From: a virus | IMG/VR virus record: IMGVR_UViG_3300025137_000081 | Coordinates: 1 to 41,389 of that record | Reading direction: 5' to 3' (one strand) | Length of the DNA stretch: 41,389 nt | Shown: piece by piece, positions 7,821-32,962 of the stretch | How the letters are laid out: every line of letters begins with the position of its first letter | How positions within the stretch are numbered: the stretch's first letter is position 1 | Position numbers and translations under genes: made by a program | Notes under the pieces: generated by a model | Seen by the model: the letters and a program-made list of their open reading frames with translations, nothing else | What the model was told of the DNA's origin: nothing | The model's database searches: none

Positions 7821-8639
7821 TTATTTATTTAAGTTATCTTTTAACCACATCACTAATGAGTTAACCTCATCCTTTAAATATGGTAATTCATATATTTTTA
7901 TATCTTCTAATACTGGCTCACCATTGACATGTTCATTAATTGGGTAGCCATTTGTATCAGTACCTACTTGTTTAAATTTAACATGTTGTATAGTAAGTTT
8001 ACCAATCTTTAGTTTAGGGTTATGCTTTTTAATAATATACGCATAAATACTGAGCTGTAGGTTATAATGATTCAAATTACAGTCATCTAAATGGTTTACA
8101 GGCCTAAACATCTTGTTTGTGATTCCTTCCCAATTAGTAAATCCTTTTTCTTTTATTTCTTTATTAGTTTTATAATCATTTATATTTATATAACCATTTA
8201 CTACTTCTACTACGTCAGCTTGTCCACATACCCCAATTGATTTTAAATATACTAAATGCTCAGGATACACTCCTTCAGATAGTTTCTGAACAGGTGCTAA
8301 CTTAACACCAGTTTCATTTACTATTGGTTTAACAATAGGTACTTCAACACCATGGCGTTCTATGGTTTTAAAGTCTAACATATCTGCTTCTCTTTGATTG
8401 TGGTAAAAATTACCTAAAGTAATTGCTCTATTTGTTTCACCATCCCAAGCAGCAATAATTTCTTTAGGGGTCATACCATACCACTTAGATCTTTTGTTCT
8501 TTGAAGACTTAACAGCTTGACCATCTCTATCAAACTTAGGTTTAAACTTACCTATAAATGATGTTACACTAAGCCAAGTAATGTTAGCATCATCTATACT
8601 TTCATATAAGTGTCCTTCTTCTTTAAATGAAATAGCCAT
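7821..8639 (-). CDS. PD-(D/E)XK nuclease, RecB/Cas4-like (272 aa)
   Basis: The PD-(D/E)XK core is visible: an early helix with HNQREAD, an Asp in CGQADVVEVV, the catalytic pair in INDYKTNKEI (D...K), and the downstream Gln/Tyr helix motif LQLSIYAYIIKK. The order and spacing fit RecB/Cas4-type nucleases that process DNA ends. A nuclease of this type is common in the structural arm of crAss-like phages, where it may act in packaging or DNA maturation. The start ATG shares one base with the preceding gene's stop (8639). All motif residues needed for activity appear intact. Confidence 0.78.
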   Translation of the reverse strand: MAISFKEEGHLYESIDDANITWLSVTSFIGKFKPKFDRDGQAVKSSKNKRSKWYGMTPKEIIAAWDGETNRAITLGNFYHNQREADMLDFKTIERHGVEVPIVKPIVNETGVKLAPVQKLSEGVYPEHLVYLKSIGVCGQADVVEVVNGYININDYKTNKEIKEKGFTNWEGITNKMFRPVNHLDDCNLNHYNLQLSIYAYIIKKHNPKLKIGKLTIQHVKFKQVGTDTNGYPINEHVNGEPVLEDIKIYELPYLKDEVNSLVMWLKDNLNK

Positions 8640-8827
8640 CAGTCTAGAGTTGTATTAGCAGTCCACATATTTCCATATAGTGGTATATCTTGTTTAGATG
8701 GAGCTACTATATTATAAACTACAGTGGTTGGCTTCTCACTTAGTAAAGTTATAGCTTCTTCAGCAGTAATTTGTTCTTCTGCTAATAGTTCACCTACAAT
8801 TTGTGCTTTGGTTAATTTTTCAGTCAT
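8639..8827 (-). CDS. Small protein, unknown function (62 aa)
   Basis: The N-terminal half is helical and Leu/Glu/Ala-rich (KAQIVGELLAEEQITAEEA), like a short UBA/SHOCT-type helix pair. The second half is neutral (VVYNIVAPSKQDIPLYGN). It overlaps the upstream Cys-rich gene by 8 nt and touches the nuclease gene at one base, so it is read in the same operon. No family recognised. Confidence 0.65.
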   Translation of the reverse strand: MTEKLTKAQIVGELLAEEQITAEEAITLLSEKPTTVVYNIVAPSKQDIPLYGNMWTANTTLD

Positions 8828-9176
8828 TTTTTTCTATTTGTTTAATTAATAATTCTTCTGTTTCTTCTGGCATTAATGCACTCCAATATCCTTTTGGACA
8901 TTCACTTGACAATGATCTAACTTTAAAAGCTAAACTACATCCACAATCTGAACAGCAAGGTTGTGTACCAGGAGCTAAACAATCATCCCCTTTAGCATCA
9001 AACAAAGAACACTTGATACATATCTGAAATCTATCAGTAGCAACTGCTTCAATATGTTCTTTTTTAAATGTATTATTTTTAATGCCTTCAGCAATTTTAT
9101 CTATATTTTTAAATACATCTAAATATTTTGACCATTTACTTTTCACTTCTAAATTTTTTCTTTTTAATAATATCAA
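8820..9176 (-). CDS. Zinc-ribbon-like Cys-rich protein (118 aa)
   Basis: A helical N-terminus rich in Lys is followed by a cysteine cluster from about residue 53: CIKCSLF, DDCLAPG, CCSDCGC, SECPKGYW. The repeated CxxC pairs and the ending CPKGYW resemble a zinc-binding module found in many Bacteroidota phage proteins. Zinc binding is inferred from the cysteines; the partner is unknown. It overlaps the IHF-like gene by 41 nt and the 62-aa gene by 8 nt. Confidence 0.7.
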   Translation of the reverse strand: MILLKRKNLEVKSKWSKYLDVFKNIDKIAEGIKNNTFKKEHIEAVATDRFQICIKCSLFDAKGDDCLAPGTQPCCSDCGCSLAFKVRSLSSECPKGYWSALMPEETEELLIKQIEKND

Positions 9177-9498
9177 GTTCCATTTGCTTCATTGCTTTTT
9201 CCATTTGAACAATATTAGTTTGTATATCCTCACTTTTAGCAAATCCTACATATGTTCTTTTAGCTAGGTTACCCAATATACTTTTATTCTTTTTTATTGC
9301 TTTATCTAACTTACCTTTTCTTAAATAAAAAGTACCTAACCCATCTACATTTATTCTAGGAAATACTAAGCTAGATAAATTACTTCTTACTTTAGCATAG
9401 TAAAAAGCAATAAAATCATCAACTACTGATTGATGTACACCTACTTTATCAGCTAGGTCTTTCCTAAATTCCTTATGACTCTTTGGATTCACGCCCAA
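9136..9498 (-). CDS. IHF/HU-like DNA-bending protein (120 aa)
   Basis: N-terminal helices (FRKDLADKVGVHQSVVDDFI) followed by the HU/IHF strand signature INVDGLGTFYLRKGKL fit the HU/IHF fold. The C-terminus adds a Lys-rich helix (MKQMELDIIKKKKF) beyond the usual 90-100 residues. IHF-like proteins are a known crAss-like phage component, and bending of phage DNA for packaging or replication is the likely job. The start overlaps the upstream gene by 26 nt; an internal start would shorten this overlap but would cut into the basic N-terminus. Confidence 0.8.
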   Translation of the reverse strand: MGVNPKSHKEFRKDLADKVGVHQSVVDDFIAFYYAKVRSNLSSLVFPRINVDGLGTFYLRKGKLDKAIKKNKSILGNLAKRTYVGFAKSEDIQTNIVQMEKAMKQMELDIIKKKKFRSEK

Positions 9499-9844
9499 GT
9501 ACTTTATAATCCAATAATACTACGCCTTCAGTCTGTACATTAATATCTTTATTAAGCATAATTGTTTTTTTATTATTGCCTTCTTTAAATAATAATTCCT
9601 TTTTTTCTGCTTTAGTTATAGCATTTCTTGCTGATTGAGGACTTTTAAAAATTTGCTTTTCTACTAAACTCTTACAAAATTTAGTTAACTCAATTTTACC
9701 AGTCTTTGCTAATTCAGTTAAAAATTTTAAATCAGAATTACTTATTAATATATCTTTAAAGAAACAATAAGTTATTATTTGATACTTCATTGTAATATCT
9801 AAAGAAGTCTGTAATTTAAGCTCTACTTTTTGTACTATTGCCAT
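9473..9844 (-). CDS. Winged-helix-like protein, possible regulator (123 aa)
   Basis: Predicted helices and a wing: SDLKFLTELAKTGKIELTKF, then SPQSARNAITKAEKKELLFK, then a strand pair around NNKKTIMLN. This resembles a replication- or transcription-type winged helix in which NAI..AEK forms the recognition helix. It is placed directly before the IHF-like gene and one base after the amidase gene, in the late operon. A role in late transcription is a guess. No family named with certainty. Confidence 0.65.
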   Translation of the reverse strand: MAIVQKVELKLQTSLDITMKYQIITYCFFKDILISNSDLKFLTELAKTGKIELTKFCKSLVEKQIFKSPQSARNAITKAEKKELLFKEGNNKKTIMLNKDINVQTEGVVLLDYKVLGRESKES

Positions 9845-9845
9845 A

Positions 9846-10769
9846 TTATAAACTCATTATCATATCTACAAAATCAGGATGAGGATAACAGTCCATTTTT
9901 CCTTTCCTAACGTTAGTATGTGTTAATAACCCTTTTACTTTACCATAGAATGCATCATCTTGAAAATCAAAACCTTTTGTTGGACCATGTTTTTTAATAA
10001 ACTGTTTTAATCCTAGTCTAATATCTATTTCATCTCTTTCCCCCACCCATCTAATCCATTTTTCTGTTTCTTTGATTTGTTTTTCACTGTAAGCATGCCA
10101 ATAAAGTTTACCTTTAAAAGCTTCATCTAAAGCAACTACTTGTTCTTCCTGACATTTAGATTTGACATATGTTTTATAGTCACTATCTAAATAACCCATG
10201 TTACATAATTCAATTCCTACAGAATGACGGTTCATATATCCTGATCCTGTTCTACCTAAATGCCAACCTTGTGCTCCCTTTGGGAAAGCTTGTAGCATAA
10301 CACCATCATGGTCATCATTACCATTTCTATGATTAACCCCACCCAATACAAATTCAGTGGCTATTCTCCCCCTAGTATCTCTACCCCAATGATCAATACA
10401 TCTATAAGGATTAGAATTACCAGCAGTATGATGTAAAAAAATATATTCATTTTGTATTGGTCCTTTTAAATACTCACCTTTAGGTAGGTAATACTTATGA
10501 ATTACTTGATCATATGATGTAGTAAAATATTGTTTATTAATATCTGTATCTTCATCAATTGTTGCATCTAGATTTAAATTCTCTACATTAAGTAAAATAA
10601 CCCAACAGTCACTATCAACTATACCTGTTACAGGTAACTCCATAGTTAATTGAAATCTTTCAACATGTTTTTCTGTAATTGGTCCAAAGTGTCCATCTAC
10701 AAGTATACCCAATTTAGTTTGTAGTGTTTTTACTTCTGAACCTCTATCTCCTAACTTCAGCTGCCTCAT
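9846..10769 (-). CDS. Endolysin: N-acetylmuramoyl-L-alanine amidase with peptidoglycan-binding domain (307 aa)
   Basis: Residues 1-60 form a PG_binding_1-like domain (RQLKLGDRGSEVKTLQTKLG, VDGHFGPITEKHVERFQ). The rest is an Amidase_2-type zinc amidase: first ligand in IFLHHTAG, substrate-groove motifs GWHLGR and NRHSVGIEL, and the C-terminal HTNVRKGKMDCYPHP carrying the last ligands. It cleaves the bond between N-acetylmuramic acid and L-Ala, for lysis or for wall penetration. No signal peptide is present, so export needs a holin, or the protein is carried in the virion. No holin is obvious nearby. Confidence 0.9.
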   Translation of the reverse strand: MRQLKLGDRGSEVKTLQTKLGILVDGHFGPITEKHVERFQLTMELPVTGIVDSDCWVILLNVENLNLDATIDEDTDINKQYFTTSYDQVIHKYYLPKGEYLKGPIQNEYIFLHHTAGNSNPYRCIDHWGRDTRGRIATEFVLGGVNHRNGNDDHDGVMLQAFPKGAQGWHLGRTGSGYMNRHSVGIELCNMGYLDSDYKTYVKSKCQEEQVVALDEAFKGKLYWHAYSEKQIKETEKWIRWVGERDEIDIRLGLKQFIKKHGPTKGFDFQDDAFYGKVKGLLTHTNVRKGKMDCYPHPDFVDMIMSL

Positions 10770-23759: not shown

Positions 23760-24443
23760 ATGGCACAAAGTATATTAGTAATAGCAGATTCAGGTACAGG
23801 AAAGTCTACCTCAATCAGAACATTAGACCCTAAAGAGACTTTCATTATAAATATTGCAAATAAACCTTTACCTTTTAAAGGCTATAAGAGTAAGTATACT
23901 CAGATTAGTAAAGAAAACCCAAAAGGTAATTTAACATCAGCAGCATCAGCTCCTGGTATTATTAAGGCAATGAAGCATGTTAATGATAAAATGACAGACA
24001 TCAAAACTATTGTTGTAGATGACTGGCAGTATATGAGTTCTTTTGAATACTTTGATAGAGCTAATGAGAAAGGTTATGATAAGTTTACTCAGATTGCAGC
24101 AAACTTAGCAATGGTTGCTAAGCTACCTAAAGATTTGAGAGATGATCTAACTGTTATCTTTTTAACTCACTCAGAAGATTCAACTGATATAAATGGAAAT
24201 AGGAAAATAAAAGCAAAGACTATTGGTAAAATGATTGACAATACTCTTACTTTAGAAGGCCTGTTCTCTATAGTCTTATTTGGTAAAGTAAATAAAAATG
24301 ATGATGGTGAACTCACTTATGGTTTTGAAACACAAAACTCAGGAGAGAACACATGTAAATCACCTATGGGTATGTTTGAGGATAAGTTTATCCCTAATGA
24401 CCTAAAATTTGTAAAAGATTGTATTGAAGAATATAATCAATAA
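23760..24443 (+). CDS. RecA-type ATPase, Sak4-like (227 aa)
   Basis: Walker A IADSGTGKST at residues 8-17, Walker B IVVDDW near 84-89, and the sensor VIFLTHSED near 135-145 fit the phage AAA_24/Sak4 group of RecA-related single-strand annealing helpers. An SSB gene follows 27 nt downstream, and Sak4 proteins are known to work with their own SSB. It drives strand annealing and recombination-dependent replication. Length fits the family. Confidence 0.82.
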   Translation: MAQSILVIADSGTGKSTSIRTLDPKETFIINIANKPLPFKGYKSKYTQISKENPKGNLTSAASAPGIIKAMKHVNDKMTDIKTIVVDDWQYMSSFEYFDRANEKGYDKFTQIAANLAMVAKLPKDLRDDLTVIFLTHSEDSTDINGNRKIKAKTIGKMIDNTLTLEGLFSIVLFGKVNKNDDGELTYGFETQNSGENTCKSPMGMFEDKFIPNDLKFVKDCIEEYNQ

Positions 24444-25211: not shown

Positions 25212-26189
25212 ATGTTTAATACTAAAAACTTTGTACTAGAAGGATCTGATATACCAAGTACGTGGGTTTTCCAATACTATCTAAACTTACCTGAAAAATT
25301 AACAGGACAAGACTTAAAGATTGTATCTATCTTTAATACCAATGAGAGAACACCAAGCTTTTGCATATATGTTGATAAAACTATTATGCAATATAAGTTT
25401 AAAGATTTCTCTACTGGTAAAAGCGGCAATAAGATTGACTTAGTTAAATCAATATTTAACTTTGACTTTCCTACAGCAATGCAGAGGATGGTTAGAGATT
25501 ACAACGCTTACGTGAGATCATCAGAATATATTGAACAAAAATTTGAACCTCAATCCAAATGGGAAGTAGACCTTATTAAAGATAGGGCCTGGACCGTGGA
25601 GGATAAAGATTATTGGTTATCTTTTAGAATTGGTAAAACATTACTAAGTAATTATAATGTAAAGCCTATTGAATACTATAACTTAATAAAAGAACAAGAG
25701 GGAGAAATTAAAAAATTGAGAATTGCTAGCAAACATATGTACGGATACTTTGATAAGTATGGTGAAGTATATAAAATCTATCAACCTCATAGTAAGAAGC
25801 ACAAGTTTCATAAAGTTAAACCTTATTTACAAGGGTTTGACCAGCTGAAATTTGATCAACCATACTTAGTAATATGTTCATCTCTTAAAGATGCTATGTG
25901 TTTAAAAGGTATGGGTTATAATTTAGAAGTATTAGCACCAGACAGTGAGAATACTATGATTAAACCTCATATAATTGAGCATCTTAAGAAAAAGTATAAA
26001 AAAATAATAACTCTTTTTGATAATGATGATGCAGGCAAAGCAGCTATTAAAAAATATAGTGAGCTTTATAAACTAGATGGTATGGTATGTCCTACAGCTA
26101 AAGATATATCTGATGCTATGAAAAATTCTGGTTTTAAATTAGTGCATTTGATGATTCAACCTATATTAAAAAAGATTTTAAATAAATAA
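25212..26189 (+). CDS. dnaG: DnaG-type primase with TOPRIM domain (325 aa)
   Basis: Makes RNA primers. The N-terminal part matches the CHC2 zinc-finger domain layout (SIFNTNERTPSF, then FKDFSTGKSGNKIDLV), but the four zinc ligands are replaced (for example SIFN where CPFH is usual). The TOPRIM core shows VICSSLKDAMCLKGMG near residue 218 and LFDNDDAGK near 267. It is short, without a helicase-binding C-terminal domain. Its first codon lies 14 nt after the terminator, so it opens the next operon. Confidence 0.85.
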   Translation: MFNTKNFVLEGSDIPSTWVFQYYLNLPEKLTGQDLKIVSIFNTNERTPSFCIYVDKTIMQYKFKDFSTGKSGNKIDLVKSIFNFDFPTAMQRMVRDYNAYVRSSEYIEQKFEPQSKWEVDLIKDRAWTVEDKDYWLSFRIGKTLLSNYNVKPIEYYNLIKEQEGEIKKLRIASKHMYGYFDKYGEVYKIYQPHSKKHKFHKVKPYLQGFDQLKFDQPYLVICSSLKDAMCLKGMGYNLEVLAPDSENTMIKPHIIEHLKKKYKKIITLFDNDDAGKAAIKKYSELYKLDGMVCPTAKDISDAMKNSGFKLVHLMIQPILKKILNK

Positions 26190-26192
26190 ATT

Positions 26193-26516
26193 ATGGATTA
26201 TTTTGAATTAGAATGTGCAGTTGAAAGCTGGGCAGAAGAAAAAGGTATCCTTGATAAAATTCAAGGACCAGATAAAGTAGCTTCACCAATGGCTCAAGCA
26301 CTGAAGACACTAGAAGAAACAACTGAGCTTATACAAGCTATCAATAGTAATGACCATGCAGAGACCATTGATGCTATAGGTGATATAATGGTCACCTTGA
26401 TTATTCAGGCTAAGATGCAAAATGTATCTTTAGAATACTGTCTTGAATCAGCTTATAATGTAATCTCAAAACGTACAGGTAAAATGATTAATGGTCAATT
26501 TGTAAAAGATAAATAA
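26193..26516 (+). CDS. MazG-like NTP pyrophosphohydrolase (107 aa)
   Basis: An all-helical fold with the MazG-type metal site: KTLEETTELIQAIN supplies the first Glu pair, and ETIDAIGDIMVTL supplies the ExxxD partner. Such enzymes hydrolyse (d)NTPs to (d)NMPs, remove odd nucleotides, or lower ppGpp. It lies 3 nt after the primase and 1 nt before the RusA-like gene. Confidence 0.78.
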   Translation: MDYFELECAVESWAEEKGILDKIQGPDKVASPMAQALKTLEETTELIQAINSNDHAETIDAIGDIMVTLIIQAKMQNVSLEYCLESAYNVISKRTGKMINGQFVKDK

Positions 26517-26517
26517 T

Positions 26518-26919
26518 ATGAGAAAAATAAGATGGTGGATACCAGGTAACGTTCCTAGCAGTAAAAATGGTAGGCGTTGGACAGGTAAATACTTTATTGC
26601 TAGCAAAGCTGTAATGAATTATAGAAAAGCTACTAAGGATATATATTTAAAATATACTAAGGATTTTAAGCAAGAACTAGAAAAGGTAGAATTACCAGTA
26701 AAAATATCTTTTGAATTTATCAGAGGAAGCCGCCATAAGTTTGACTATATAAATCCTGCACAGACAGTGCAAGATGATATGGTTAAGTATGGGTGGATTG
26801 AAGATGACAATGCAGAGTTTATAATTCCTGCATTTGAACAATATACTTATGATAAAGAAAATCCAGGTGTGTGGATAGAATTAATAATTAATGAAAAAAA
26901 AGAAGATAATATCAATTGA
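26518..26919 (+). CDS. rusA: RusA-like Holliday junction resolvase (133 aa)
   Basis: Signature regions of RusA are visible: PSSKNGRRW near the N-terminus, RHKFDYINPAQTVQDDMV in the centre with acidic residues for metal, and the closing PAFEQYTY strand. The conserved D...D pair (KFDY and QDDM) and following GWIEDDNAE fit the active site. It cleaves four-way junctions formed during replication and recombination. The next gene begins 29 nt before its stop. Confidence 0.85.
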   Translation: MRKIRWWIPGNVPSSKNGRRWTGKYFIASKAVMNYRKATKDIYLKYTKDFKQELEKVELPVKISFEFIRGSRHKFDYINPAQTVQDDMVKYGWIEDDNAEFIIPAFEQYTYDKENPGVWIELIINEKKEDNIN

Positions 26920-27187
26920 TGAATTCTTTAGAATGAAAGAAATGTTTTCTGGATCATTAGAAGACAAAGAACTTGCATTTGAAATATACAACAATCAGTA
27001 TACAGATAGAAAGATACTTGATCTATTGATGCTAAAAGCATTAATGTTCAGTGACAGAAAAGCTTTTGCTGCTACTATAAAAGTAGATTTTACCGTAGGT
27101 AATGGTAAAAAATTATATACATTTTTATCATTGGAACAAGCTGATGATATTTATAAACAAATTTTAGATAAATTAATGGATGATTAA
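26891..27187 (+). CDS. Small acidic-helical protein, unknown function (98 aa)
   Basis: Starts KKKKIISIDEFFRMKEM, then a helical run with many Leu/Met (ILDLLMLKALMFSDRKAF) and a mixed beta segment (TIKVDFTVGNGKKLYTF). It overlaps RusA by 29 nt and the VWA gene by 8 nt. It may be an adaptor for the VWA/MoxR genes that follow. No family recognised. Confidence 0.65.
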   Translation: MKKKKIISIDEFFRMKEMFSGSLEDKELAFEIYNNQYTDRKILDLLMLKALMFSDRKAFAATIKVDFTVGNGKKLYTFLSLEQADDIYKQILDKLMDD

Positions 27188-28343
27188 TATACAAGATCAG
27201 GTTGCAAGAACAACCAAAAGTTTAATATTTACTGAGCCCTTTTACGGGCTCTTTTTAATTGGTATCAATAAAAAGTATAGTGAGAACATTCCCACTGCAG
27301 GTGTAAGTAAACACAATATTGGTATACAATTGACTATAAACCCAGAGTTCTATAATGATCTCAGTGAAGACCATAGATTTGGTTTGATAAAACATGAGCT
27401 ATTACATATAGCTTTTGGACATCTTATTTTAAGGGACCTATATACAGATCATAAGTTATTTAATATAGCTGCAGATTTGGAAATAAACCAGTACATACTG
27501 GAAAGCAAACTACCTACGGGTGGGCTGTTATTAAATAGTTTTCCTGAATTAAATCTTCCTACAAAAGCAGGTACCAAAAAGTATTATGAGCTTTTGGAAC
27601 AGGCAAAAGAGGATGGAACATCTCCTTCATTAGATAATCTTATGAATCAAATGGATGGTACCAGTCAGTACTGTCATGGCACGTGGAATGATTTTGATGA
27701 ACTGCCTGAAGCAGATAAAAAACTAATGCAAAAACAAATTGAGCATCAGTTAAAAGATTCTGCTGAACAAACAATCAAGAAAATGGGAACTATTCCGGGT
27801 GAATTAGCAGACCTTATACATAGACTTACTCATATTGAGCCAGCTAAATTTGATTGGAAAGGTTATTTAAAAAGGTTTGTTGGTAATTCAAGTATAGTAT
27901 ATACTAAGAAGCTCAGACGTAAGTATAACAAACGGTATGCTGCTAATCCAGGCCTTAAAATTAAGTTTAAGAATCATATTCTTGTTGGTGTTGACACAAG
28001 TGGGTCTGTAAATAATGATGAATTAAAAGAATTCTTTAATGAGTTAGCACATATGTGCAAAACTGGTCATAAAATTACAGTAGCACAATGTGATACAAAA
28101 CTTAATAGTGTGAAAGAGTTCAATCCTAAGCATGATTGGGAAATACATGGTAGAGGTGGGACTTCATTCCAACCTGTAATAGACCATTACAATGAAAAGA
28201 AAGGAGCTTATACAGCTCTAATATATTTAACAGATGGTGAAGCATATTCTCCTGATGACTGTCCTAAGAACACATTATGGGTTCACAGCAGTGTATCAGA
28301 AATAAATGATGAATTACCAGGACAAAAAATCAAATTAAATTAA
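27180..28343 (+). CDS. VWA-domain protein with metallopeptidase-like N-terminus, DUF2201-like (387 aa)
   Basis: N-terminal half: a conserved EPFYGLFLI start and a HExxH motif in KHELLHIAFGH (about residues 71-81) as in zinc metallopeptidases, then IAADLEINQYI. C-terminal half is a VWA domain with a full MIDAS set: VGVDTSGSV near 269-277, GGTSF near 325 and YLTDGE near 348. In bacteria this DUF2201-like fusion pairs with a MoxR-type ATPase, and that gene lies 7 nt downstream. The pair probably acts as a chaperone-like or metal-loading machine on an unknown client. An intrinsic terminator lies inside its 5' end. Confidence 0.85.
   Translation: MINIQDQVARTTKSLIFTEPFYGLFLIGINKKYSENIPTAGVSKHNIGIQLTINPEFYNDLSEDHRFGLIKHELLHIAFGHLILRDLYTDHKLFNIAADLEINQYILESKLPTGGLLLNSFPELNLPTKAGTKKYYELLEQAKEDGTSPSLDNLMNQMDGTSQYCHGTWNDFDELPEADKKLMQKQIEHQLKDSAEQTIKKMGTIPGELADLIHRLTHIEPAKFDWKGYLKRFVGNSSIVYTKKLRRKYNKRYAANPGLKIKFKNHILVGVDTSGSVNNDELKEFFNELAHMCKTGHKITVAQCDTKLNSVKEFNPKHDWEIHGRGGTSFQPVIDHYNEKKGAYTALIYLTDGEAYSPDDCPKNTLWVHSSVSEINDELPGQKIKLN
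27234..27256 (+). terminator. Intrinsic terminator inside the VWA gene
   Basis: GAGCCC (27234-27239), 6-nt loop, GGGCTC (27246-27251), then five T residues. It lies 54 nt into the coding sequence, in codons for a conserved motif (EPFYGLFL). Confidence 0.7.
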
Positions 28344-28350
28344 TAAAACA

Positions 28351-29622
28351 ATGGCACAAGTAAATTTAAACGTTACAGAACTAAAAGGATTTGTAAATCA
28401 CATAATAAAAAATAATAGATTCCTACAAACAGAGGGTAAAAGTCCTGTATCAGTAGAAGTTGTAGGAGAATCAGGTATAGGTAAGACATCTACCATAGTA
28501 GAGCTTGCTCAGGATAATAATTTAAAGTTTGTTAAGCTAAACTTAGCACAGATAGAAGAGTTAGGTGACCTTGTTGGTTTCCCTGTACGTCAATTTCAAA
28601 TGTACAAAGAGAAGACAGTACCGGCTAAAAAATTAGATGATCTAAGTATGGTTACTGCTGCACAAAGAGCTGCAGGTAATAGTTTAGCTAATTTAAATAC
28701 AACAACTACTAAGAAAATTGGTATGTGGGTTGATGAACTAGCTGTACAAGAGTACCTAAAGAATGGATATAAAATGTCAGGTAAAAATAGAATGTCTTAT
28801 TGTGCTCCTGAATGGATTGCTGATGCAAAAGAAGGTGGTATATTATTACTAGATGACTGGAACCGTGCTGATACAAGATTTATTCAGGCAGTTATGGAAC
28901 TGATAGACCGTCAGACTTATATTTCATGGACATTACCAAAAGACTGGCACATAATTTTAACAGCAAACCCTGATAATGGAGATTATATGGTTAACAGTGT
29001 AGATAGTGCACAGAAGACTAGATATGTAACCGCTAACCTTAAGTTTGATGTTAATGTATGGGCACAATGGGCAGAGGGTGCAGGAATTGATACTAGATGT
29101 ATTAACTTCCTATTACTTCACCCAGAGTTAGTAACTCAAGAAACAAATGCAAGATCAATTACAACGTTCTTTAATGCTATATCTAGCTTTGAAAAGTTTG
29201 AAGATAGTTTATCATTAATTCAAATGATTGGTGAAGGTAGTGTAGGAGATGAATTTGCTTCTATGTTTACTACATTTATTAATAATAAACTTGATAAACT
29301 AGTAACACCTAAAGATTTATTGACTCATGATAATGAATCTTATATTCTTGGTGAACTAAGATCTTGTATTGGACAAGATGATACATACCGTGCAGATATT
29401 GCTGCAACCTTAGCAACTAGACTTGGTAATTATTCTGTAGTATATTCTAAAGAAAATACTATAGGGCAAAAGCAAACTGATAGATTAATCTCTCTCTGTA
29501 CAAAAGATTATTTTACTAATGATCTTAAGTATTTAATTGTGAGAACAATCTTTAACGGAAATAAAAAGAAGTTTAATAAGATGATGATGAATCCAGACAT
29601 TATCAAAATGACAATGAAATAA
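28351..29622 (+). CDS. MoxR-type AAA+ ATPase (423 aa)
   Basis: Walker A GESGIGKT at residues 39-46, Walker B GILLLDDWNRAD near 161, sensor 1 in IILTANPDNGDY, and an Arg-rich end of the core (DSAQKTRYVTANLKFDV) mark the MoxR branch of AAA+ ATPases. These form rings that act with VWA proteins to remodel or activate a client. Length is longer than usual MoxR (about 330), with a C-terminal helical extension. It is followed 1 nt later by two related genes that are candidate clients or adaptors. Confidence 0.87.
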   Translation: MAQVNLNVTELKGFVNHIIKNNRFLQTEGKSPVSVEVVGESGIGKTSTIVELAQDNNLKFVKLNLAQIEELGDLVGFPVRQFQMYKEKTVPAKKLDDLSMVTAAQRAAGNSLANLNTTTTKKIGMWVDELAVQEYLKNGYKMSGKNRMSYCAPEWIADAKEGGILLLDDWNRADTRFIQAVMELIDRQTYISWTLPKDWHIILTANPDNGDYMVNSVDSAQKTRYVTANLKFDVNVWAQWAEGAGIDTRCINFLLLHPELVTQETNARSITTFFNAISSFEKFEDSLSLIQMIGEGSVGDEFASMFTTFINNKLDKLVTPKDLLTHDNESYILGELRSCIGQDDTYRADIAATLATRLGNYSVVYSKENTIGQKQTDRLISLCTKDYFTNDLKYLIVRTIFNGNKKKFNKMMMNPDIIKMTMK

Positions 29623-29623
29623 A

Positions 29624-30676
29624 ATGGCAAATAAATCAGTATATCAAAACCTTGATCTTGCTGCTTTATCTTACTTTGATTTAGAGAGTGATACCATAAA
29701 CGGTATCCTCTCTTCTTCAAATGAGATAAATGAAGTGTTATGCACTGAAGATCAAACAACATATGAAAAAATACACAGTATATTAACGGTCCCTACAGAA
29801 GATGACCAAACTTTTAGAACTAAAAAGAAAGCTTTTATATTACCTAAGTGTAGTGTATCACAAGATAGATTAAAAGCAGCTCTTAAAGAGCACGGTATTA
29901 CTGTAACTAATGATTATGAATTAGCAGACTTAATTATAGGTCATGATGAAATAGCACCATATGAGAAGTTAAGTAATGGAGATAACATACCCAGTACTCT
30001 TATGATGGCAAAGTTATGGAATTATGAAACTACTAAAGGTAGAAGCACAGCTTGTCATCCTATGGAAATATCAATTTATAACTCAGGTATTCCAACTCTA
30101 ATAACTGGTAAGTTGACTGACAAAGTAAGATACTATGATTTAGATATAGAAAGTAGTGTATATGATGTGTGGATGATTACAGGTATGGCTTTAAACTTAG
30201 CACATCTTATAGATACAACAGACTTAAGTGTAGTTGATCCTGAGACAGTGTTACATAGCTCAGCTAGTAAAATGGTTCTTGATGAACAATTGCTAGCAGA
30301 TCTTAAAACTCAACTTAATTCTTATAGTGATGATAAAGCTATTGCTCTTAAGATTGTCCCTACTATTGACTATAAAAGAAACTATCATTTATTATGGCAG
30401 TTTGCACAAGACTGTAATAGTATAACCTATGCAGATAATAGAGATAAAGATCTTCAGTATTGGTTAGAAGCTTCTGGATTTAAAAAGTTTGAAAGAAAAA
30501 GTGCTCAAGATATGATACTATGGTTAGAAGTAAATGATAAGTTATGTAAAACAACTTTTAGATATTTAGAACCTATAGTAAGAAGAGAAATAAGCATACA
30601 TAATAGAGATCTTTATACATTTCAAGTAGCTGTAAAGAAAGAATATCAACAATATTTAAAAAAACAAGATGATTAG
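29624..30676 (+). CDS. Paralog A: BRCT-like module protein beside VWA/MoxR (350 aa)
   Basis: Residues 65-105 (KKAFILPKC, DRLKAALKEHG, YELADLIIG) look like a BRCT-type fold (strand, helix, strand ending in a conserved AD-hydrophobic motif). The rest is helical, with HSSASKMVLDEQLLADL and DKAIALKIVPTIDYKRNYHL. The neighbour encoded at 30669 has the same parts in the same order, so the two are probably diverged copies. No named family. Its place right after MoxR suggests it is a client or adaptor of that machine. It overlaps the next gene by 8 nt. Confidence 0.72.
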   Translation: MANKSVYQNLDLAALSYFDLESDTINGILSSSNEINEVLCTEDQTTYEKIHSILTVPTEDDQTFRTKKKAFILPKCSVSQDRLKAALKEHGITVTNDYELADLIIGHDEIAPYEKLSNGDNIPSTLMMAKLWNYETTKGRSTACHPMEISIYNSGIPTLITGKLTDKVRYYDLDIESSVYDVWMITGMALNLAHLIDTTDLSVVDPETVLHSSASKMVLDEQLLADLKTQLNSYSDDKAIALKIVPTIDYKRNYHLLWQFAQDCNSITYADNRDKDLQYWLEASGFKKFERKSAQDMILWLEVNDKLCKTTFRYLEPIVRREISIHNRDLYTFQVAVKKEYQQYLKKQDD

Positions 30677-31853
30677 AAAATTCAATTTAAGTATACAAGT
30701 AGATGAAAAAACTACTGTAACTAATAACAATAGCATAGTAAATAATAATAAAGTAACCACAAAACTATTGAGTAATGCATTTACTCTAGTAGAAGAAGGT
30801 GTATATGTTGGTCAAACTAACAGTTGGCAAATAGAGAAAGAGTTAATAAAAGAAATCTTACCTCCGTCACCAGAAGTAATAGATGTACAAGATAAAAAGC
30901 TGTACAGATGGCCACATTTAGATTTACCTAGACAAAAAGTTGATCTATTAAAAGAAAAGTTTAATTGTAAAATAACTAGATCTATAGATAAAGCTGACAT
31001 AGAGGTAATATCTATTAATACAATGAGAAAGTTAATGGAAACTAATTGGTACCCCTCATATAATTACAGTGGTATGTATGATCTATTAAGCTTTCTTAAA
31101 AAGTCTGACTCTCTAACAGCAGATTCTTTATTAAAGTGTAAGGAACTGTTAGAAGGAATACCTAAAGACTCAAGAATACATATTAGTAAATCTTACTTTC
31201 ATGGGAACTCAGTACATTTACTTGATGCTAATAGAATTATAGGTAATTATATAGAAGCTGAAAGGGATAAACTGAGAGATAATGGTGGTAGAGAAATACT
31301 AGTTAAAGGACAAGAGAACATAGATAAATATCATAGTATAATTAATACTTCATCTCAAATAGTATTTGATGTTGATATAAATAACTTAATTGATAAAGAC
31401 TTAGCTGTTATTGAAAATACTGAATTAGAAAACATTGAACAAATGATTACTAGTTCAGATAGAGATAATAGATCCTTAGCCTTAGAAATGCTAGCAAATT
31501 GTAATGTTAATGCTTCTTTTGATGTAGTTAGTAATATTTATTACTGGCAATATGACTGGTTAAAAGACACTAATAATTGGAATACAGTAAATGTTAAAGC
31601 ACTGAGATCTAAAATGAAAGTCTTTGAAGGTGGTGGTAGTGTAAGCAACTGCTATAGCTACAATAATTATATCAAAAATTTGATACATCATGATAAATTA
31701 ACTAAGTTTGCTATTGATAATACAAGAGAGAAAATGTATAAACACATTATGTCTCCTCTAGTAGGTAATGATAGAGAAGACACAGTGTTCCATGTATCTT
31801 TAGAAGCTCTTCAACTAAGAGATAACTTAATAGAAAACATTAATAATGACTAA
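30669..31853 (+). CDS. Paralog B of the BRCT-like pair (394 aa)
   Basis: Same layout as its upstream neighbour: KKLYRWPHL, VDLLKEKFN and KADIEVIS in the BRCT-like part, then NTSSQIVFDVDINNLIDKDL and NRSLALEMLANCNVNASFDV matching the HSSASKMVLD and KAIALKIVPT regions. It carries extra sequence before and between these parts, including an Asn-rich N-terminal stretch (VTNNNSIVNNNKV). Function unknown. Translational coupling (8-nt overlap) ties it to paralog A and the MoxR gene. Confidence 0.7.
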   Translation: MIRKFNLSIQVDEKTTVTNNNSIVNNNKVTTKLLSNAFTLVEEGVYVGQTNSWQIEKELIKEILPPSPEVIDVQDKKLYRWPHLDLPRQKVDLLKEKFNCKITRSIDKADIEVISINTMRKLMETNWYPSYNYSGMYDLLSFLKKSDSLTADSLLKCKELLEGIPKDSRIHISKSYFHGNSVHLLDANRIIGNYIEAERDKLRDNGGREILVKGQENIDKYHSIINTSSQIVFDVDINNLIDKDLAVIENTELENIEQMITSSDRDNRSLALEMLANCNVNASFDVVSNIYYWQYDWLKDTNNWNTVNVKALRSKMKVFEGGGSVSNCYSYNNYIKNLIHHDKLTKFAIDNTREKMYKHIMSPLVGNDREDTVFHVSLEALQLRDNLIENINND

Positions 31854-31986
31854 AAAAGATGATAGAAAAGCGTTGATAGAAACTATATTATTCTATAAAG
31901 AAAAAATAAACCAGACACCTGGTGTTAAAGCAATGATACAGAAACTACAACAAAAATTAGATAAACTAGATGATAAAAACAAATAA
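31846..31986 (+). CDS. Small helical protein (46 aa)
   Basis: A 46-codon frame (start MTKKDDRKALIETILFYKEK, end LQQKLDKLDDKNK) overlaps paralog B by 8 nt and the next nuclease gene by 17 nt. The sequence is a single charged helix pair with a Leu-rich, coiled-coil-like end. The overlaps at both sides and clean codon use support it. Function unknown; it may bridge the two neighbours. Confidence 0.65.
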   Translation: MTKKDDRKALIETILFYKEKINQTPGVKAMIQKLQQKLDKLDDKNK

Positions 31987-32962
31987 AGAAAAAGAAGAGA
32001 AGTTTTATGCAAATAAAGATTTTTGCTTTAGCTACTCTTCTTTGAATAAATTATTATTTTCACCATCCTTATTCTATAAGGACTATATATTACATGACCG
32101 TGAGGTCAGAACTGATAAACATTTAATTGAAGGTAAACTAATACACTGTCTCTTGTTTGAGGCAGGTGAAGTTAATAATAAATTTAATGTTGTACCAGGG
32201 AAAAGCCCAAGTGATAATATCAGAAAGGTATTAAAAGATATGGCTCTTCATACTGATGCAGAAACATTAGTAGATTGTGATGACTTTATCATACTAGATT
32301 CACTAAAGAATTTAAACCTATATCAATCTCTTAAAGCTGATGAGTCAAGAATAGCTAAGATAAGAACAGAAGACAATGAACCTTATTGGAAATTTGTTGG
32401 TAACAGTAATGTTGATGTAGTTGATCAAGATACTTTAGTGAGATGTACTGAGAGAGTAGAAATACTAAAAGAAAATAAAGATGTTATGTCATTGTTTAGT
32501 GAAGTAACAACTGATTTTGATTTAGATCCTATTGAAACATTTAGTGAGAAGTATCTTAAGTCTGAACTTAAAGGTTTAGATTTTGGCCTGCATGGATTTA
32601 TAGATTATTATAAGGTTGATAGTGATAAAAAGCAAGTAACCATATGTGATCTTAAGACAACTGGGAAGACAATCTCAGACTTTAAAGACACTGTAGACTT
32701 TTATAATTACTGGTTACAAGCTTCTATTTATATGAAGTTAGTGTATGATACCTTGGGTGATGATGCTGATGATTATGAATTAATGTTTAAGTTTGTTGTA
32801 ATTGATACATATGATCAAGTATATGTCTTTGATGTATCTAGAGAAACTATGGGTGGATGGGCTGATGGCCTTGGAGGTGCAATTAAAACTGCTGAATTCC
32901 ATTATAAAAGTAGAAATTACTCATTGCCTATTGAATTTTTATCAAAAAAGGTTACCTTATAG
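31970..32962 (+). CDS. PD-(D/E)XK exonuclease, RecB/Cas4-like (330 aa)
   Basis: The nuclease core is complete: an N-terminal SYSSLNKLLFSPSLFYKDY helix, EGKLIHCLLFE (His helix), LHGFIDYYKV (first Asp), VTICDLKTTGKT (D-x-K), and WLQASIYMKL (Q-x-x-x-Y). This matches RecB/exonuclease VIII-type processive nucleases that resect ends for recombination. It is a second PD-(D/E)XK enzyme besides 7821-8639, and lies in the recombination and replication arm. Start overlaps the 46-aa gene by 17 nt. Confidence 0.83.
   Translation: MIKTNKEKEEKFYANKDFCFSYSSLNKLLFSPSLFYKDYILHDREVRTDKHLIEGKLIHCLLFEAGEVNNKFNVVPGKSPSDNIRKVLKDMALHTDAETLVDCDDFIILDSLKNLNLYQSLKADESRIAKIRTEDNEPYWKFVGNSNVDVVDQDTLVRCTERVEILKENKDVMSLFSEVTTDFDLDPIETFSEKYLKSELKGLDFGLHGFIDYYKVDSDKKQVTICDLKTTGKTISDFKDTVDFYNYWLQASIYMKLVYDTLGDDADDYELMFKFVVIDTYDQVYVFDVSRETMGGWADGLGGAIKTAEFHYKSRNYSLPIEFLSKKVTL

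Follow-up and report, generated by a model that had tools for sequence, protein, structure and literature searches.

A conserved phage gene module, termed U, P1, P2, P3 and P4 here, was identified in IMG/VR sequence IMGVR_UViG_3300025137_000081, examined as a window of 41,389 nucleotides (nt) that is the whole stretch of DNA analysed and to whose positions all coordinates refer (Table 1). P1 encodes a metallopeptidase fused to a VWA domain and P2 a MoxR-type AAA+ ATPase, and this two-gene core is already known in phages. Judged from the sources searched, the new features are the fixed pair of BRCT-like and HEAT-like proteins P3 and P4, a likely fifth member (U), a constant setting among recombination genes and a conserved hairpin within P1. 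We tentatively favour, with something short of even confidence, the reading that U-P1-P2-P3-P4 is one dedicated protein-remodelling machine working with the phage recombination and replication genes. Complex formation, the adaptor role, the timing and the target are inferred, as is the idea, put forward in a preliminary description of this DNA, of a host or replisome protein being remodelled or cleaved.

The preliminary description had proposed an operon of four coupled genes, and the list of open reading frames (ORFs) for the window contains P1 to P4 where it had placed them, tightly packed on the + strand with gaps of 7 nt (P1-P2) and 1 nt (P2-P3) and an overlap of 8 nt (P3-P4). The coupling of these genes stood while the limit of four did not, since U probably belongs to the operon too. 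The clade that carries the module is made up of uncultured phages, most of them marine, that appear related to the crAss-like group, and the order Sak4, primase, RusA, (U), P1, P2, P3, P4, exonuclease and polymerase was constant in 286 clade loci. P1-P2-P3-P4 was always located between the RusA resolvase and the exonuclease and was broken only at contig ends; P3 without P4 (nine loci) and P2 without P3 (two loci) were seen solely where the last gene was within 237 nt of the contig end. Linkage of the two partners to the MoxR/VWA pair in related phages, which the preliminary description had singled out for checking, was thus unbroken, with the 286 loci not amounting to 286 independent events because many came from contigs that were identical or close kin.

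Median pairwise identity across 57 dereplicated genomes was 0.87 for P2 and 0.81 for P1, followed by RusA (0.76), the primase (0.67), the exonuclease (0.66), P3 (0.58), U (0.38) and P4 (0.37), so that P1 and P2 were under tighter conservation than the primase and P4 and U diverged most rapidly. No members of the module are more constrained than P1 and P2, whose motifs are intact; this counts towards a dedicated remodelling machine. Fast change of P4 and U within a very conserved module also bears on a less probable alternative, in which the machine attacks the host or counters its defences by dismantling or cleaving a host protein or DNA-bound defence complex; recognition would then fall to P4 and U, its variable parts. 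An early promoter at the homologous genes of Bacillus phage AR9 (below) and the description in bacteria of ternary conflict systems in which a third component joins MoxR and vWA proteins (PMC7159879) fit this alternative as well. Against it, the block keeps its place among core recombination genes, none of these genomes having lost it, and no known defence family was matched beyond a marginal match of P2 to BrxF (E 0.009), the only match when defence-system membership was searched. Most counter-defence genes are patchy in distribution. A defence system was itself rejected as an identity for the module given only the marginal BrxF match, and no VMAP, iSTAND or FtsH third component or effector domain was found (Pfam for P3 and P4; PADLOC and NCBIfam for P3, P4 and U).

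P1 matched the Pfam families DUF2201_N (8.6e-19) and DUF2201 VWA (3.2e-15) and the PHROG family phrog_1314 (3.4e-63). The HELLH motif and the MIDAS residues (D272xS274xS276, T328 and D352) were invariant across 43 P1 homologs of the clade, and with the Pfam matches these residues confirm the earlier assignment of P1 as a DUF2201-like protein with a complete HExxH motif and a complete MIDAS. The label "HNH endonuclease" carried by phrog_1314 was rejected, as the matched protein is DUF2201_N plus VWA with no HNH family among its Pfam matches. This label has spread through phage annotations including RefSeq NC_021532 and NC_049430 and, judged from the domain matches, this widely propagated annotation is wrong for P1.

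P2 matched phrog_1297 "ATPase" (2.4e-34) and, weakly, Pfam AAA_5 (3.3e-4, 21.1 bits, just below the 22-bit cut-off). Searches of the PDB with sequence profiles of P1 to P4 gave a match for P2, to the midasin AAA (3e-7), and none for P1, P3 or P4. The protein adjoins P1 and has Walker A, Walker B, sensor 1 and an arginine finger, with DD instead of DE as the Walker B acidic pair, and N206 and R224 were invariant across 30 clade homologs. The PHROG match, the midasin match and the invariant ATPase motifs together agree with its earlier identification as a MoxR AAA+ ATPase. The second acidic position of Walker B was Asp in the clade P2 proteins (n = 30) and Glu in the distant ATPases aligned.

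P3 and P4 matched no family in Pfam, PHROGs, PADLOC or NCBIfam, in line with their earlier description as proteins without a family name, and tblastn searches for homologs in annotated phages with the window proteins and one diverged member as queries (E up to 1) returned none. AlphaFold2 models, each built on the alignment of the protein concerned, had a mean predicted local distance difference test score of 86.6 for P3 and 89.5 for P4 and showed nearly the same order of secondary structure elements. Searched separately against predicted viral structures with Foldseek, the two models shared the same four strong matches at probability 1.00, the only strong matches of either: A0A8S5QMV2 (crAss-like virus), A0A6J5LXR8, A0A8S5TKB2 and A0A8S5TL70. 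The last two are both from Podoviridae sp. ctz6O13, so that one distant phage also has two proteins of the P3/P4 fold. Template modelling scores over the full length were low (0.31-0.42), indicating that the domain arrangement varies. By sequence alone the relationship was borderline, with a co-linear hhalign alignment of the C-terminal halves at E 3.6e-4 in a single pairwise comparison (probability 37%). Taken with the models, P3 and P4 are predicted to be truly related and to share one fold, and the kinship in predicted fold on which the preliminary description had staked its pairing was found. Its register of matching stretches held for KKAFILPKC/KKLYRWPHL, ADLIIG/ADIEVIS and IALKIV/LALEML and failed for SSASKMVLD/SSQIVFDVD, which hhalign pairs elsewhere.

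A BRCT-like start had been described for both partners. In P3 the resemblance spans residues 68-115, and a Foldseek comparison of the model with the PDB placed the PARP1 BRCT at probability 0.90 over 42 columns (1.9 A, 28% identity) but at E 0.31, with further BRCTs below it in the list and good superposition over only about 40 columns. The Pfam BRCT family (PF00533) stayed below threshold: of 54 P3 homologs, 11 gave such a weak match, the best at E 0.0083, and in the two with a position listed it fell at residues 66-115. The P4 model has the full BRCT element order at residues 77-145, while no Pfam BRCT match, even sub-threshold, was found in P4 homologs. The description as BRCT-like therefore has weak but repeated backing for P3 and none from Pfam for P4, and both proteins are termed BRCT-like with no BRCT domain assigned. 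Like the BRCT domain, they are modelled with a beta1-alpha1-beta2-beta3 order and spacing, and P3 superposes locally on PARP1 and other BRCTs; unlike it, only the first half aligns, Pfam matches are sub-threshold and the segment sits inside a larger fold of unknown type. The C-terminal halves of both proteins are all helical (about residues 187-345 in P3), and DNA_alkylation, a HEAT-type fold, was found sub-threshold in four P4 homologs.

Another explanation, which we consider rather unlikely, is that P3, P4 and perhaps U are clients that the MoxR/VWA pair matures or assembles, as for neighbour-encoded enzymes. Characterised MoxR-VWA pairs do act on an associated enzyme complex, rubisco (PMC4660213) or cNOR (PMC13036017), and P3 and P4 are always directly downstream of P2. 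In P3 and P4, however, no recognisable enzyme or metal centre was found by Pfam, PHROG or PDB profile searches, and maturation alone would leave the peptidase domain of P1 unexplained.

The small protein U usually precedes P1 in clade loci, and its helical-hairpin motif, ED..LA.E, recurs in the C-terminal parts of P4 and P3. A U profile searched against the 89 ORFs of the window matched P4 (E 6e-4), as did hhalign (E 6e-4). At four of five inspected loci without a direct U match, a protein of 131-146 amino acids (aa) with the same motif was present in the same place. The U profile, searched against five proteins, matched these diverged equivalents at E 1e-6 to 1e-5. Neither PADLOC nor NCBIfam gave a match for U. 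These similarities suggest that U is a probable fifth member of the module.

Codons 19-26 of P1 in the window read GAGCCC TTTTAC GGGCTC TTTTT, a hairpin built from the rare codons CCC, GGG and CTC in a gene of 33% GC. This stretch had the top synonymous conservation in P1 (z 4.7 over windows) and was the only GC-rich hairpin retained along the gene, being present in 87% of 68 dereplicated sequences. The stem and T5 were both intact at 56 of the 68 dereplicated loci and both lost at nine, two loci had the stem without T5 and one was unplaced; the association of stem and T-run (Fisher p 1e-9) is uncorrected for relatedness, and the joint losses fall in a diverged subset of the clade. Frameshifting at the T-run was set aside, as a hairpin upstream of the run is the arrangement of a terminator and unlike that usual for frameshifting. 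The conservation pattern is consistent with what is apparently an intrinsic terminator kept within the gene, i.e. an intragenic attenuator, which from its position near the P1 start would probably trim expression of P1 and the downstream genes. U overlaps P1, and therefore ribosomes passing from U into P1 could mask the hairpin.

Table 1. Features of the module and its surroundings in the window
Feature	Position	Strand	Description and support
U	26891..27187	+	98 aa, small helical protein; overlaps P1 by 8 nt
P1	27180..28343	+	DUF2201 metallopeptidase with HELLH and, fused to it, a VWA domain with complete MIDAS; Pfam, PHROG, motif invariance
Hairpin (GAGCCC-TTTTAY-GGGCTC) and T-run inside P1	27234..27256	+	intrinsic-terminator-like; synonymous conservation
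HELLH zinc motif of P1, residues 72-76	27393..27407	+	invariant within clade; kept in most distant phages aligned
D99 of P1	27474-27476	+	candidate third zinc ligand; invariant in 43 P1 homologs
MIDAS DTSGS of P1, residues 272-276 (D272xS274xS276)	27993..28007	+	completed by T328 and D352
P2	28351..29622	+	MoxR-type AAA+ ATPase; phrog_1297, PDB midasin AAA match, alignments
Walker A GESGIGKT of P2	28465-28488	+	invariant in 30 P2 homologs
Walker B LLLDD of P2	28843-28857	+	Asp replaces usual Glu; invariant in 30 P2 homologs
P3	29624..30676	+	350 aa; BRCT-like segment and helical C-terminal half; AlphaFold, Foldseek, sub-threshold Pfam BRCT
BRCT-like segment of P3	29825-29941 (about residues 68-106)	+	Foldseek, sub-threshold Pfam BRCT
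P4	30669..31853	+	394 aa; beta domain at N-terminus, BRCT topology at about residues 75-145, variable middle, C-terminal half helical and HEAT-like
Sak4-like annealing protein	23760..24443	+	part of same conserved block
DNA primase	25212..26189	+	part of same conserved block
RusA-like Holliday junction resolvase	26518..26919	+	conserved neighbour upstream of module
Exonuclease VIII-like protein	31970..32962	+	conserved neighbour downstream of module

Between the primase and RusA genes of the window is a MazG-like gene (26193-26516, +), whose best match was downstream of the polymerase in many relatives; it seems mobile while the remaining block stays fixed.

No near named relative of the window virus was found. 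Its terminase is 25-26% identical to those of crAss-like, Flavobacterium and similar phages, and Cellulophaga phages are also among the terminase relatives, which are consistent with the Bacteroidota-phage setting assumed in the preliminary description. Among the clade contigs, large ones extend to 107-120 kb. The module was also present, with P3 at 77% identity, on WLWP01000004.1, a 114,697-base contig in a Pseudomonadales metagenome-assembled genome, and this contig of phage-genome size is probably a phage binned with a bacterium. Profiles of P1-P4 gave no match in Cellulophaga phi14:2, Fpv20 or five crAss-like phages, nor did those of P3 and P4 in six phages that have a MoxR/VWA pair; both searches were run without a positive control and are weak negatives. 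The core pair itself is widespread, P1 matching 456 annotated phage records. Four fecal "Bacteriophage sp." scaffolds matching P2 (MT838754, MT837937, MT836813 and MT839739; unverified) were not used as phage evidence because three of them have bacterial housekeeping genes next to the pair, and in the readable DUF2201 copies the motif is HxxxH without the Glu; those three scaffolds are probably chromosomal.

In Bacillus phage AR9 the homologs g028/g029 are annotated as an AAA ATPase and a "zincin-like protease fused to vWA domain"; directly upstream an early promoter is annotated, which favours an early role. The genes downstream of this pair, g030 and g031 (locus coordinates 8357-10201), encode mutual paralogs (46% over 84 aa, E 1e-16) with no detectable homology to P3 or P4, and AR9 is an independent-looking case of the core pair trailed by two related proteins. 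P3 and P4 themselves were not found in AR9 or in the other named phages searched. These observations bear on the role published for the same pair in group 2.2 jumbo phages, a virion assembly chaperone and processing peptidase, proposed (PMC7824862) by analogy with ATV p618/p892 (PMC4124505). Such a role seems improbable for the present module and suits its gene context less well, as the block is located in the replication-recombination arm at a distance from the portal and terminase genes on the opposite strand, and the AR9 promoter is early whereas 41 of 43 AR9 virion proteins are late (PMC5312081).

In the remodelling machine that we favour, P2 would form a MoxR AAA+ ring that drives a client and P1 would dock on the ring through its VWA domain. 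The MIDAS metal of P1 would hold an acidic residue of the target, and the zinc-peptidase domain could cut the target once displaced. P3 and P4 would be an adaptor or scaffold pair joining the motor to its target, or would be clients themselves. The target would most likely be a nucleoprotein complex, of the phage or the host, early in infection; the module's location amid recombination genes and the early promoter in AR9 together indicate early work on nucleic-acid complexes. By analogy, MIDAS client binding with ATP-driven remodelling is backed by CbbQO mutants (PMC4660213) and the NorQD model (PMC13036017), which also counts for this reading. So do the unbroken P1-P2-P3-P4 linkage, the constant site between RusA and the exonuclease with Sak4, the primase and DNA polymerase nearby, the common fold of P3 and P4, the two proteins of that fold in ctz6O13 and the BRCT resemblance of P3.

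Several observations weigh against it. Backing for the BRCT resemblance is partial, with PDB BRCT matches at E 0.2 or worse, alignment of the first half of the domain only and Pfam matches below threshold. The Asp conserved in Walker B of P2 in place of the Glu of distant ATPases suggests that ATP hydrolysis may be slow or impaired. AR9 is distant (about 26% identity in P1), so the timing is drawn by analogy. Neighbouring recombination genes are no proof of a recombination role for the module, and the rapid change of P4 and U suits a host-facing role at least as well.

A bolder and distinctly unlikely version holds that an ATP-driven peptidase machine clears or remodels protein-DNA complexes, with the BRCT-like paralogs as a targeting unit in the style of DNA damage proteins and output set by the intragenic attenuator. 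The complexes meant would be replication or recombination intermediates that are blocked, or defence proteins bound to DNA. If true, the clearing machine would be a phage analogue of the eukaryotic AAA+ motor and HExxH protease that cooperate in DNA-protein crosslink repair. No established target was found for any phage MoxR/metallopeptidase-VWA pair. A clade with fixed dedicated partners, a recombination-operon site and conservation above that of the primase offers a concrete handle, with the partners usable as bait, and the idea of an early, recombination-associated role can now be weighed against that of virion assembly.

To our knowledge, a HExxH peptidase domain is not known in the VWA proteins of CbbQO, NorQD or RavA-ViaA. 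These systems (PMC4660213, PMC13036017, PMC10585395) resemble the module in combining a MoxR motor with a VWA/MIDAS partner and differ in being bacterial, with known metabolic or respiratory clients. For CbbQO, mutants support binding of an acidic residue of the client rubisco by the VWA partner via its MIDAS while the MoxR ring supplies force (PMC4660213), and NorQD has been modelled likewise with cNOR as the client (PMC13036017). The bacterial ternary conflict systems, whose third component is VMAP, iSTAND or FtsH (PMC7159879), share with the module a MoxR and vWA pair with a conserved additional component, whereas here the genes are phage-borne and P1 has an intact metallopeptidase motif. 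ATV p618/p892 is likewise a viral MoxR with a VWA partner, but it belongs to an archaeal virus, p618 is a virion component (PMC4124505) and no peptidase is fused (PMC7824862). The module also shares its two-protein core with the pair described in jumbo phages (PMC7824862; phrog_1297, phrog_1314; AR9_g028/g029), where a MoxR AAA+ protein adjoins one that starts with a metallopeptidase domain and ends in a VWA domain. In contrast to that pair, P1 here precedes P2, two fixed BRCT-like and HEAT-like paralogs follow, a small protein is encoded upstream and the whole module is located inside a block of recombination genes.

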